Below, one piece after another: positions 13,761 to 19,168 of a DNA stretch of 64,000 bases. The stretch lies in NCBI RefSeq assembly GCF_016406125.1, contig NZ_CP066339.1, forward strand, positions 2,170,001 to 2,234,000, written 5' to 3'. This stretch comes from Alicyclobacillus sp. SO9. GTDB lineage: Bacteria > Bacillota > Bacilli > Alicyclobacillales > Alicyclobacillaceae. How positions within the stretch are numbered: position 1 is the stretch's first letter; each line of letters opens with the position of its first letter. A program made the translations under genes and the position numbers. The notes beneath the pieces were generated by a model. That model was not told the origin of the DNA, did not search any database, and saw only the letters and a list, made by a program, of their open reading frames with translations.

Positions 13761-14987
13761 TTGCGGATTGTACAGAAGTACGGCGGGACTTCGGTGGGGA
13801 GCTTGGAGCGAATTGAAGCTGTAGCTGACAGAGTTGCGAAAACAGTACAGGCCGGCAATGAATGTGCTGTTGTGGTCTCTGCCATGGGTAAAACCACGGA
13901 CCAGTTAGTAGAGCTGGCGAAAGGACTTACGAACAAACCGGATGCCAGGGAACTGGACGCGTTGCTGTCAACTGGAGAGCAGGTCTCAGCAGCGCTTTTG
14001 TCAATGGCGCTACACAAGCGCAATATTACTGCCAAGTCCTACACTGGCTGGCAGGCTGGTATCGAAACAGAGGCCATACATGGGACAGCGCGGATGACAA
14101 ATGTTCGTACGGAATTCCTGGAACAGGCTTTGAAGGACGGAATCGTTCCGGTTGTAACGGGCTTTCAAGGTATTGCCGGAGACTCAGTGACGACGCTTGG
14201 CCGCGGGGGCTCGGACACTACCGCAGTGGTGATTGCGGCTGCACTTGATGCAGATGTGTGTGAGATCTATACAGATGTTACGGGGGTCTTCACAACGGAT
14301 CCGCGAACCGTACCTAACGCTCGGAAAATCAAGTCTCTACAGCATGAGGAAATGTTGGAACTCGCGACATTGGGTGCTCAGGTTTTGCATCCGCGCGCAG
14401 TAGAAAATGCGAAGAAGTTCTCAGTACGTCTAGTGGTTAAATCTAGTTTTTCTGAAGAAGAGGGGACAGAAATCGTGGCTGATTTGGAGGGTCTTGAACT
14501 GCAAAAACCTGTAACGGGTATTGCAACTGAGAAGAGTGTCGCGCGAATCGCCGTGGTCGGTGTACCGGTCAATCGGCACGGTCTTGCCAAGATGTTTTCA
14601 AAGCTTGCTGAAGAAAGAGTAAACGTAGACGTTATCGTTCAGAGTGTTGTTAAGGAACGTGTTGTCGATGTTTCGTTTACCGTTCAGGAGCAAGATGTCG
14701 ATGAGGCGCTAGCGGTCGTCGAAGGTCTGAGAACCGAACTGGGCTTTGAAGATGTCATTAAAGAGTCAGGTTTAGCGAAAATTTCCATTGTCGGAGCCGG
14801 CATGATTAGTAATCCTGGGGTTGCGGGCGAAATGTTCGAAATTTTAGCAAGTGCGGACGTGACAATCAAGATGGTCAGCACTTCAGAAATCAAAGTGTCC
14901 TGTATTATCCCCGCTTCGCAACTGGCAACGGCCGTTTCATCTGTCCACAGTGCTTTCTTGGAGGGAGTACTGTCCGGAAGCAAGTAA
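13761..14987 (+). CDS. lysC: Aspartate kinase
   Basis: 408 residues from TTG at 13761, the same size as Bacillus aspartokinase II. It phosphorylates aspartate, opening the lysine, diaminopimelate, threonine, and methionine pathways. KYGGTSVGS is the N-terminal kinase motif, GRGGSDTTAV and YTDVTGVFTTDPR are conserved catalytic and nucleotide segments, and two ACT domains follow (about 265-335 and 345-408) for feedback binding. A GTG at 13752 is in frame but overlaps the ribosome site. The 5' leader folds into interleaved hairpins. Confidence 0.94.
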   Translation: MRIVQKYGGTSVGSLERIEAVADRVAKTVQAGNECAVVVSAMGKTTDQLVELAKGLTNKPDARELDALLSTGEQVSAALLSMALHKRNITAKSYTGWQAGIETEAIHGTARMTNVRTEFLEQALKDGIVPVVTGFQGIAGDSVTTLGRGGSDTTAVVIAAALDADVCEIYTDVTGVFTTDPRTVPNARKIKSLQHEEMLELATLGAQVLHPRAVENAKKFSVRLVVKSSFSEEEGTEIVADLEGLELQKPVTGIATEKSVARIAVVGVPVNRHGLAKMFSKLAEERVNVDVIVQSVVKERVVDVSFTVQEQDVDEALAVVEGLRTELGFEDVIKESGLAKISIVGAGMISNPGVAGEMFEILASADVTIKMVSTSEIKVSCIIPASQLATAVSSVHSAFLEGVLSGSK

Positions 14988-15042
14988 AAACGGAGAACTA
15001 CTCAAAAATGAGTCTTAGTTTTAGATTGTTCGAAATATTTCA

Positions 15043-15070
15043 TTGACATTCGTTCAATCCTTCTATAAAT
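15043..15070 (+). promoter_or_regulatory. SigA-type promoter of serA
   Basis: TTGACA (15043-15048) and a TATAAA/ATAAAT -10 (15064-15070) at 15-16 bp spacing lie immediately before the riboswitch, placing the transcript start near 15077. Confidence 0.6.
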
Positions 15071-15089
15071 TCAAGGAAACAAAAGAGAC

Positions 15090-15205
15090 AGTGTTCGCAT
15101 GACTGGCGGATTTTTAAGGGGATTACCTTGTGGGAGTGCGAATGAATGAAATTGCCGACCGCCTGGGCGCTGCTCGTATGAGGAGTGTGCCCTGCGGTTT
15201 TTATT
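15090..15205 (+). ncRNA. ZTP (pfl) riboswitch with terminator, upstream of serA
   Basis: P1 pairs TTCGCA (15094-15099) with TGCGAA (15137-15142). The conserved GACTGGCGG (15101-15109) is followed by the small hairpin AAGG/CCTT (15116-15129). The second conserved block CCGCCTGGGC (15159-15168) pairs its CCGCC with GGCGG (15105-15109), forming the family pseudoknot. The same CCGCCTGGGC strand alternatively pairs with GCCC-T-GCGGT (15189-15198) before a run of U, giving a terminator. Binding of ZTP, a signal of low 10-formyl-THF, should favour the pseudoknot and read-through into serA. This fits serine as the main one-carbon donor. Confidence 0.88.
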
Positions 15206-15286
15206 TTCGGCATGTCTCTCCAAGCAGCGACAGTCACGGCGGGAGAGGCGCAAGACAGAGACTATAAGGAGTTGGGAGAGAGGCGT

Positions 15287-16870
15287 ATGAAGGTCTTCGT
15301 AGCAGATGATATTTCCTCCTTGGGGCTTGACCGATTGAAGCAGTATCAAGAGATTGAGATTGAAAAAAGGACAGGTCTGAAAGAAGACGAACTCATTGCT
15401 GCCGTTTCCGATGCAGAAGCTTTGCTTGTTCGGTCACAGACAAAAGTGACACGAAAGGTCATCCAAGCTTGTGGGCAGCTGAAAGTGATTGGCCGGGCTG
15501 GCGTTGGAGTGGACAACATTGATGTTGATGCGGCTACAGAACACGGCATCGTTGTAATTAATGCTCCTGACGGTAATACAATTTCTGCTGCAGAACACAC
15601 CTTTGCAATGCTGATTTCACTGTCGCGGCATATTCCGCAGGCGCGTCAGACGATGCAGGAGGGAAAGTGGGACCGTAAGACTTTTGTCGGTGTTGAGCTG
15701 TCAGGAAAGACGCTTGCCGTTGTCGGAATGGGGCGTATTGGAACTGAAGTGGCCAAGCGTGCTAAAGCATTTGGAATGCGTCTTGTTGCCTACGATCCAT
15801 TTTTGACAGAAGACCGTGCCAAGACACTTGGTGTCACATTAAAGTCGCTTGAAGATGCGGTCGCAGAAGCCGATTTTGTGACTGTTCATACACCTTTGAC
15901 AAAAGATACGAAACATATTATTGATGAGAAAATGTTCGGAAAAATGAAAACCGGAGTCCGAATCGTGAACTGTGCCCGCGGCGGTATCATTGACGAAGTT
16001 GCCCTTTGCGAGGCACTGACAAGCGGCAAGGTTGCAGGTGCTGCTTTCGATGTTTTTGAAGAGGAACCCGTGACGGCAGACCATCCTCTGCTGCAATTTC
16101 CTCAAGTCATCACAACGCCCCACTTGGGGGCATCGACGGTAGAGGCGCAGGTCAATGTGGCTGTCTCTGTCGCAGAAGAAGTTGGGCATGTGCTGGTTGG
16201 AAAGCCGTTTAAGAACGCTGTAAACATACCTTCTCTAAGCGAAGAGCAGAAACAGTATTTACAGCCGCATCTAAATTTGGGTGAGCGCCTCGGGAAATTT
16301 GTAGGTCAATTGGCGTCTGGGGCTATGTCTGAAGTAGAAATGGTGTTTTGCGGTGAACTTGATGACAGTGATTTACCCTTTGTGTCGAGAAGTGTCTTGA
16401 AAGGGCTCTTGGGCTACAGATACGGTGACGAAGTCAACTTCATCAATGCTCCGACTTTGGCTAAGCAGGCAGGTATGACTATACGACAGGTCCGTGAATC
16501 GCAGCACAAGGTATTTACCCATCTTCTCAGTCTGTCGGTTCGGGTCAACGGAGAATTACACAAGGTAGCGGGTACGCTGTACAACGGTCTTGGTCCGCGT
16601 ATTGTTGAAATTGAGGGCTATCCAATCGACGCAAGTACAGAAGGAAAGATGATTTTCACAAAACACCATGACAGACCCGGGATGATTGGGCATCTTGGCA
16701 GCATGTTGGGCAAGGAACAGATTAATATTGCTGCGATGCAGGTGGGTCGTAAGGAAACGGGTGGAGAGGCAGTCATGCTTCTGACAGTGGATAAGCTGGT
16801 ACCTGAATCGGTAGTGCATGAGTTGTCGCAGCTGCCTGGCATTCATGAAGTACAGACCATTGTACTCTAG
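15287..16870 (+). CDS. serA: D-3-phosphoglycerate dehydrogenase
   Basis: 527 residues, the long SerA form with a C-terminal ACT domain. It commits 3-phosphoglycerate to serine synthesis with NAD. The Rossmann motif VVGMGRIGTEVAKRAKAFG, the substrate-side VIGRAGVGVDNID, and the HTPLTKDTKHII and TPHLGAST segments are intact. The last 75 residues (MIFTKHHDRPGMIGHLGSMLG...) are the ACT regulatory domain. The ATG at 15287 is preferred since the upstream in-frame extension lies in the riboswitch leader. It heads a serA-serC-HAD hydrolase series. Confidence 0.95.
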   Translation: MKVFVADDISSLGLDRLKQYQEIEIEKRTGLKEDELIAAVSDAEALLVRSQTKVTRKVIQACGQLKVIGRAGVGVDNIDVDAATEHGIVVINAPDGNTISAAEHTFAMLISLSRHIPQARQTMQEGKWDRKTFVGVELSGKTLAVVGMGRIGTEVAKRAKAFGMRLVAYDPFLTEDRAKTLGVTLKSLEDAVAEADFVTVHTPLTKDTKHIIDEKMFGKMKTGVRIVNCARGGIIDEVALCEALTSGKVAGAAFDVFEEEPVTADHPLLQFPQVITTPHLGASTVEAQVNVAVSVAEEVGHVLVGKPFKNAVNIPSLSEEQKQYLQPHLNLGERLGKFVGQLASGAMSEVEMVFCGELDDSDLPFVSRSVLKGLLGYRYGDEVNFINAPTLAKQAGMTIRQVRESQHKVFTHLLSLSVRVNGELHKVAGTLYNGLGPRIVEIEGYPIDASTEGKMIFTKHHDRPGMIGHLGSMLGKEQINIAAMQVGRKETGGEAVMLLTVDKLVPESVVHELSQLPGIHEVQTIVL

Positions 16871-16939: not shown

Positions 16940-18028
16940 TTGTCACATCCAGCGCGAGTAGACAATTTTGGTGCAGGTCCTGCAGTACTCCCGGAATCCG
17001 TGCTGTTAGAAGTGCAGGAAGAACTGCTAAACTATCGGCAATCTGGGATGTCAGTCATGGAGATGAGCCACCGGGGCAAGGCGTACGAGGAAATACAGGA
17101 AGAGGCCGAGGCGCGACTGCGAAGACTGCTGCAGGTGTCTGACGAATATGAAGTTTTATTTTTGCAAGGCGGTGCCAGTCTGCAGTTCGCCATGCTTCCG
17201 TTAAATTTCCGCGGGGAGGGGTCAGAAGCTGCCTATGTTCTGAGCGGATCGTGGGCGAACAAAGCAATGCAGGAAGCAGAGACAACGGGAAGGGTGCGTA
17301 TTGCAGGAAGTTCCAAGGAGCAGGGTTTCCGGTCTATACCGACACAGTGGAACACGAAAGAGTCGGACGCCTATGTGCATATCACCACTAACAACACCAT
17401 CTACGGAACCCAGTGGAGACAATTGCCTGAAAAACAGTCAGTTCCATTGGTGGCTGACATGTCAAGCGATATGCTGTCTCGTCCCTTTGCCATGACAAAC
17501 TTTGACATGGTGTATGGCGGAGCACAAAAGAACCTTGGTCCCGCTGGCGTGACCTTGGTTTTGCTAAGAAGGGAATGGGTACAGCAGGCCGTGATGGAAG
17601 AAGTTCCAAAAGTCATGCGTTATGCGACCCATATTTCCGGTAAATCACGGTACAATACGCCGCCGGTGTTTTCCGTTTATGTCCTCGGAAAAGTTTTGAA
17701 ATGGCTGGAGAGTATGGGGGGATTGCGGGGCATTGAGCAACTGAACGAAGACAAAGCTGGTACCCTGTATACCGCCATTGATAAGAGTGAGGGTTTTTAC
17801 AGAGGGTATGCACAGGCAAGCAGCCGCTCTCGAATGAATGTCACGTTTAACCTTGCATCAGACGAACTAGAGCAGAAATTTTTGCGCGAAGCGGCGGAGT
17901 CTGGTTTTGTGGGACTGTCTGGGCACCGGTCTGTCGGCGGTTGTCGTGCCTCCATTTACAATGCCCTCTCTTTGGAGGCATGTAGTCGCCTGGCCGAATT
18001 TATGCAGACTTTTCGGAAGAACAATTGA
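16940..18028 (+). CDS. serC: Phosphoserine aminotransferase
   Basis: 362 residues, a class-V PLP aminotransferase converting 3-phosphohydroxypyruvate to phosphoserine. NFGAGPAVLP at the N-terminus, MSHRGKAYEEI, the TNNTIYGTQW block, and the PLP lysine K197 in YGGAQKNLGPAG are diagnostic. The TTG start is fixed by GAGGAGG 7 nt upstream. It follows serA by 69 nt containing a tandem repeat and precedes the HAD hydrolase gene by 18 nt. Confidence 0.95.
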   Translation: MSHPARVDNFGAGPAVLPESVLLEVQEELLNYRQSGMSVMEMSHRGKAYEEIQEEAEARLRRLLQVSDEYEVLFLQGGASLQFAMLPLNFRGEGSEAAYVLSGSWANKAMQEAETTGRVRIAGSSKEQGFRSIPTQWNTKESDAYVHITTNNTIYGTQWRQLPEKQSVPLVADMSSDMLSRPFAMTNFDMVYGGAQKNLGPAGVTLVLLRREWVQQAVMEEVPKVMRYATHISGKSRYNTPPVFSVYVLGKVLKWLESMGGLRGIEQLNEDKAGTLYTAIDKSEGFYRGYAQASSRSRMNVTFNLASDELEQKFLREAAESGFVGLSGHRSVGGCRASIYNALSLEACSRLAEFMQTFRKNN

Positions 18029-18046
18029 AAGTGTGGAGTGCAATCT

Positions 18047-19168
18047 GTGTATAAGACGATTCTGTTTGATGTAGACGGTGTGTTATTGAGTGAGGAGAGG
18101 TACTTTGATGCATCTGCCCTGACAATCTATGAATTGTTGAGCAGCTCTCGGTTTCTTGGCGTTTCCATAAGCTATCTTCCTGAATACAGGGATAACTTTA
18201 GTGACGAACAGATTCATCAGATACGATGGAGTGTTTTTGTTCAAGATACGGTTTTAAACGCAATGAAGAGCCTAGGCATCAATGCCAATTGGGATATGGT
18301 ATATCTTCAATTTTTGGTGCAGTTTCTAAAATACGCAGAAGCGGTCAGCGCTGGTCCAGAGTTTTCAAAATTCGCAGCAGTTGAATCTTGGACCGAAAAA
18401 TCTCTGCGGGAATTTGGCGGTATGCTGAAAGGATTGGATATTCAGACGGATTTTTCTGACTTTTCCAAGCTGTTTGAGGCATGTCGAACAAAACAGGATT
18501 TGTGGCTTGTTTTGGAACAGCGGTATCAATTGGTGTTTGGGACAAACCCGAAAATTGAGGCAGTGTTAAGAAGCTTGTGGGAGGTAGGACAGCAAACTTT
18601 TCAAGAATGGTATCTTGGGAAAAGCTATCTGCCGTCGCAGCCTGGTAACAAAACTGGTTTTGTCTTGAACGAGGTACCGGTCGTAAATCCGAAGGAAGTG
18701 AGCAAACTCTTTGCAGAGTGCGTTCGGCGCGGAGTTCGTATTGGGGTTGCCACCGGACGGCCGGAAGTGGAAACGAAAGTTCCGTTTGAAAGCTATGCCT
18801 GGGATGAATACTTTGATGAGGGATGCATTACTACTGCGTCCGACGTGCTTGAAGCGGAGACGAGCTACCCATCTTATCGCCCTTTGTCTAAGCCTCATCC
18901 GTTCTGCTACTTGCGAAGTTACATGGAGAGCCCTGACACCATTGCAGTTCTTCAAGAGGAGTTACCTCTTGAACATACGGTAGGGGACACGATTCTCATC
19001 GTTGGAGACTCCATGGCCGATTTGTTGGCTGCAAAGAGTCTGGGATGTGATTTTGCAGCAGTACTTACAGGACTTTCAGGTAAAGCAGCTCGACCTGAGT
19101 TTGAAACAGCAGGAGCCACATACATCTGGTCGGATGTGACGGATTTATGGTCGTTACTGAAAAAATAG
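18047..19168 (+). CDS. HAD hydrolase, candidate phosphoserine phosphatase
   Basis: 373 residues. All four HAD motifs are visible: LFDVDGVL (I, nucleophile Asp), GVATGRP (II), the lysine in SKPHPF (III), and ILIVGDSMADLLAAKSLG (IV). A large cap of about 190 residues lies between motifs I and II, far bigger than in classical SerB. Since serA and serC precede it directly and no serB is near, it may hydrolyse phosphoserine; this rests only on context. The start GTG at 18047 follows GTGGAG by 8 nt; GTG at 18038 is the alternative. Other phosphatase substrates cannot be excluded. Confidence 0.75.
   Translation: MYKTILFDVDGVLLSEERYFDASALTIYELLSSSRFLGVSISYLPEYRDNFSDEQIHQIRWSVFVQDTVLNAMKSLGINANWDMVYLQFLVQFLKYAEAVSAGPEFSKFAAVESWTEKSLREFGGMLKGLDIQTDFSDFSKLFEACRTKQDLWLVLEQRYQLVFGTNPKIEAVLRSLWEVGQQTFQEWYLGKSYLPSQPGNKTGFVLNEVPVVNPKEVSKLFAECVRRGVRIGVATGRPEVETKVPFESYAWDEYFDEGCITTASDVLEAETSYPSYRPLSKPHPFCYLRSYMESPDTIAVLQEELPLEHTVGDTILIVGDSMADLLAAKSLGCDFAAVLTGLSGKAARPEFETAGATYIWSDVTDLWSLLKK

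Follow-up and report, generated by a model that had tools for sequence, protein, structure and literature searches.

The serA-serC operon of Alicyclobacillus sp. SO9, with a third gene for a HAD-superfamily phosphatase, is very probably governed by a ZTP-class riboswitch that acts as an ON switch on transcription. The serA leader carries what is, by its sequence, a real ZTP riboswitch of known class, and its association with serA is no local oddity, since it is fixed across the Alicyclobacillaceae. The class, its mechanism and serA as a target are all known already. The main interest of the present analysis lies instead in the family-wide regulon that emerges around this leader and in a candidate phosphoserine phosphatase encoded within the serA operon.

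Scanning of the window (the whole stretch of 64,000 nucleotides analysed here) with cmscan against all Rfam families identified RF01750 (ZMP/ZTP, pfl motif) upstream of serA at 54.5 bits, above the gathering score of 39 bits, with an E-value of 4.3e-6 as reckoned for 64 kb and 4227 families. The match spans model positions 1-86 of 86, and a whole-genome aptamer search recovers the same interval. An earlier note on this DNA had proposed a ZTP riboswitch at 15090-15205; the covariance scan bears out that assignment and the interval is correct to within a few bases. The pfl landmarks listed there are likewise all present: GACTGGCGG, starting at 15101, CCGCCTGGGC at 15159-15168, the GGCGG/CCGCC pseudoknot and an overlapping hairpin with its U tract (Table 1). 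The binding-core letters GACUGGCGG, GGGAG and GCCGACCGCCUGGGC match the Rfam consensus, and the conserved core letters GACUGGCGG and CCGCCUGGGC are found in J1/2 and in the P3 loop. Folded alone, the 87-nt aptamer gives no signal above shuffles, which is the expected outcome, as the folding programme cannot represent pseudoknots.

Table 1. Features of the serA leader and operon in the window.
Feature	Position	Strand	Detail	Basis
Probable sigma-A promoter	15043-15071	+	TTGACA 15043-15048, TATAAA/TAAATT 15064-15071	consensus scan
ZMP/ZTP riboswitch aptamer (pfl motif, RF01750)	15089-15175	+		cmscan, 54.5 bits
P1 helix	15093-15099 with 15137-15143	+		structure and covariation
Pseudoknot	15105-15109 with 15159-15163	+	GGCGG with CCGCC	sequence complementarity
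P2 helix	15116-15119 with 15126-15129	+	AAGG with CCUU	structure and covariation
P3 hairpin	15154-15156 with 15166-15168	+	GCC with GGC, pseudoknot strand in the loop	cmscan, folding
Intrinsic terminator	15157-15175 with 15183-15199	+	U tract 15198-15207	folding
serA, D-3-phosphoglycerate dehydrogenase	15287-16870	+	527 aa	TIGR01327, 685 bits (cut-off 454)
serC, phosphoserine transaminase	16940-18028	+		TIGR01364, 478 bits (cut-off 443.6)
HAD-superfamily phosphatase gene	18038-19168	+		Pfam HAD matches only

Comparison with relatives provides independent support for the helices. In an alignment of 27 Alicyclobacillaceae aptamers, P1 and P2 covary: 7 of 20 pairs changed on both sides, a figure that none of 500 shuffles equalled, and the cells changed on both sides number 47, against a shuffled mean of 14.6. 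In P1, five of the eight pairs change on both sides, while the P2 strands, AAGG/CCUU here, read GUGG/CCAC in most relatives. Overall, 97.2% of cells are paired, a proportion that drops to 35-43% once the partner strand is slid. The pseudoknot and P3 are invariant in all 27 aptamers and hence offer no variation for covariation to score. Beyond this alignment, ACTGGCGG and CCGCCTGGGC were found in all 30 family leaders inspected.

Upstream of the aptamer lies a probable sigma-A promoter with 10 of 12 consensus matches, of a quality for which the scan found one instance and 0.4 were expected; TTGAC...TAT-like sequences, judged by eye, precede the aptamer in many Alicyclobacillaceae leaders. Downstream, the 5' arm of an intrinsic terminator includes both the pseudoknot strand and the 3' arm of P3, pairing CCGCCTGGGC with GCCCTGCGG, after which comes TTTTTATTTT. 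For the segment 15148-15211 the folding energy is -28.7 kcal/mol; 200 shuffles average -17.9 (z -3.8), and none of them reaches that value. A simple terminator scan did not flag this hairpin, probably because internal loops interrupt its stem, but it is apparent from the folding programme and from 29 relatives. The overlapping terminator is present in 30 of the 30 Alicyclobacillaceae serA leaders inspected; in each of them, 8 to 10 of the 10 letters of CCGCCTGGGC are predicted to pair with a downstream strand that precedes a T-rich stretch. That downstream arm varies, reading GTTCAGGCG in many relatives and GCCCTGCGG in SO9.

Since part of P3 and one pseudoknot strand are taken up by the terminator arm, aptamer and terminator are mutually exclusive, and ligand binding should therefore favour read-through. 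Left unconstrained, the leader folds with the terminator at -43.4 kcal/mol, against -28.9 kcal/mol when the aptamer is forced, a value to which the pseudoknot helix adds roughly -8.3 kcal/mol by a crude estimate. That the terminator fold is the more stable one agrees with a kinetic ON switch of the kind that NMR established for the ZMP riboswitch of Thermosinus carboxydivorans (PMC7337938). In both leaders the pseudoknot/P3 strand is common to aptamer and terminator, and the SO9 leader would likewise act as a kinetic ON switch; the Thermosinus switch has been studied by NMR, whereas the SO9 switch is a computed one.

Three other readings of the leader have to be weighed. The first posits a tandem gate, with ZTP acting as ON and glycine as OFF signal, in which a glycine aptamer is hidden between the terminator and serA. 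There is a precedent for it in a 2022 survey of tandem riboswitches, which reported ZTP followed by glycine aptamers before the gene that opens the 3-phosphoglycerate-to-serine pathway in Bacillus and Oceanobacillus and predicted that ZTP switches this serine-synthesis gene on (PMC9481103). The SO9 leader shares with that system the ZTP aptamer, the function of the target gene and the predicted ON direction, but its one ZTP aptamer stands alone, without a glycine aptamer. Glycine, THF and T-box aptamers were sought in 14980-15300 and none was found, not even at weak score; the glycine riboswitch gives no match there at E up to 5, and, RF01750 apart, no RNA family scores meaningfully in that interval. 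Moreover, the distance from the U tract to the serA start codon leaves only about 80 nt for a glycine aptamer. The tandem reading is thus largely refuted, and we regard it as very improbable. Equally hard to credit is an OFF switch, in which ligand would promote termination at serA. Such OFF action was proposed for two ZTP aptamers in tandem at moeA (PMC9481103), but the position of the pseudoknot strand and the P3 3' arm within the 5' arm of the SO9 terminator is the layout of an ON switch, and an increase in serine upon ZTP makes metabolic sense, which also favours ON control. Finally, a decayed aptamer without function, with serA expressed from some other signal, would account for a score below that of most relatives' aptamers (many at 60-72 bits), but core letters and terminator are intact and no family genome with a serA match lacks the aptamer there, which makes this reading highly unlikely.

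The ZTP-class ON switch thus being the preferred reading, the gene it would control is the next one on the same strand, 112 nt 3' of the aptamer, and its match to TIGR01327 agrees with the serA annotation of the earlier note. Its purine-rich ribosome-binding region lies at 15266-15283. An alternative start at an in-frame GTG (15185) was rejected: it falls inside the terminator, and alignments with relatives begin at the ATG at 15287. The intergenic gaps behind serA are short (about 70 nt to serC and 10 nt from serC to the HAD gene), and no convincing promoter or terminator was found between the three genes, which makes co-transcription as a single serA-serC-HAD operon likely. In 15 of the 16 family genomes compared, the HAD gene follows serA on the same strand at a distance of 1.1-1.3 kb, and SerB (TIGR00338) scores above cut-off in none of the genomes compared. 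By its sequence and position, the HAD protein is a candidate non-orthologous phosphoserine phosphatase that would complete the serine pathway.

The association of the aptamer with serA extends to the whole family. Each of the 41 serA matches, from 40 Alicyclobacillaceae genomes, is preceded on its own strand by a ZTP aptamer at a distance of 56-304 nt; one further family genome, 72% complete, gave no serA match. The leader of one of these genomes (G040, L045) is long, with about 300 nt from aptamer to serA; within it, the region from the terminator to the start codon holds a direct repeat, CTATCCAGTAA...GGGTCT, with a unit of about 80 nt. In a sister family of the same order (f2), a ZTP aptamer was found at none of 17 serA matches, and Rfam reveals no other leader at these loci. 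Outside the order, and as lower bounds among the serA matches listed for the class sample, direct ZTP-serA pairs occur in at least two families of Bacilli (f14, in G070, G107 and G121; f29, in G091). Among the matches listed in the same sample, the gene behind ZTP is serC in G216 and encodes a shorter SerA-like dehydrogenase in G108. In a genome from another Bacilli family (G135; L125, 179-258 and 1468-3045), a class V aminotransferase gene and then serA come after a ZTP aptamer, an order that suggests ZTP control of a serine or glyoxylate operon of another kind. Elsewhere in the Bacilli, a T-box leader was detected in or near the serA/serC locus at 12 of the 20 serA loci scanned.

The remaining ZTP aptamers point to a coherent set of targets. 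The 5.29-Mb SO9 genome contains three, one in the serA leader and two before folD genes; of its three folD genes, two lie behind a ZTP riboswitch and the third does not. The two ZTP-linked copies (L001, 492-1370, and L002, 597-1433, both on the reverse strand) are only 34% identical to each other, and in most family genomes a divergent folD lies behind ZTP, in the manner of an alarmone-induced spare. Across the order, 40 of 58 non-serA aptamers directly precede folD, and those examined among the others stand before glyA or purT, as judged by sequence and in some cases confirmed by family models. Serine hydroxymethyltransferase (glyA) was observed behind ZTP at L136, L137, L139 and L144, and formate-dependent GAR transformylase (purT) at L138, L140, L141 and L142. 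All ZTP targets examined in the family are thus one-carbon or purine steps, and the set formed by serA, folD, glyA and purT indicates that the ZTP regulon follows the route from serine to formyl-THF.

Cells make ZMP and ZTP as a signal of distress when formyl-folate becomes scarce. Serine, the product of the SerA-SerC pathway, supplies GlyA with one-carbon units, and 10-formyl-THF is then formed by FolD from the product of that step. From membership of the class, we infer that the SO9 leader senses this signal and that serA is switched on by it. When 10-formyl-THF is short, ZMP would accumulate and part of it would be converted to ZTP. Binding of the ligand to the nascent aptamer would stabilise the GGCGG/CCGCC pseudoknot and P3, so that the strand 15159-15168 would be withheld from the terminator hairpin (15157-15199) and the polymerase would continue into serA. 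In the absence of ligand, the terminator, as the more stable fold, would form and end transcription near 15200. More SerA would then mean more serine and, via GlyA and FolD, more one-carbon units for 10-formyl-THF, the restoration of which would relieve the block at PurH. This physiological benefit, presumed from the class and the targets, offers a metabolic rationale that is good but not proven. Formate-THF ligase (Fhs) is missing in 30 of 41 family genomes, and its loss would make serine the main one-carbon donor in them. SO9 itself has Fhs and so does not depend on serine alone for one-carbon units; in the sister family, the enzyme is missing from 12 of 18 genomes, yet these have no ZTP at serA. 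The absence of Fhs alone therefore does not explain the wiring, with which it is only partly consistent as a cause.

The earlier note ranked serA behind purH, folD and glyA as a target of ZTP riboswitches, and the commonest targets of the class are purH, fhs, pfl, glyA and folD (PMC2864571). The SO9 leader conforms to the RF01750 class in its full-length match, conserved core, pseudoknot complementarity, P3-overlapping terminator and location directly before a one-carbon gene, and differs from it in having serA as its target. A ZTP-class switch at glyA in Cupriavidus has been found to respond to trimethoprim (PMC10882993). In the literature searched, the founding 2015 paper and its tables apart, we found no description of a single-aptamer ZTP-serA arrangement as a fixed, family-wide feature.

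Taken as a whole, these observations raise the possibility, to which we give an even chance, that in the Alicyclobacillaceae ZTP drives the entire route from 3-phosphoglycerate to 10-formyl-THF, by way of serA-serC-HAD, a divergent spare FolD and, in some genomes, glyA, with purT added in some, and that the third gene of the serA operon encodes a phosphoserine phosphatase from a family other than that of SerB. If so, serine synthesis would be wired to folate stress across the family, in contrast to the T-box found near serA in many other Bacilli. The serA aptamer extends the predicted reach of ZTP signalling one step upstream of the folate enzymes, to the supply of serine as the carbon donor. 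The family provides a tidy natural regulon (serA, glyA, folD and purT) in which to examine how the ZTP alarmone sets one-carbon priorities.
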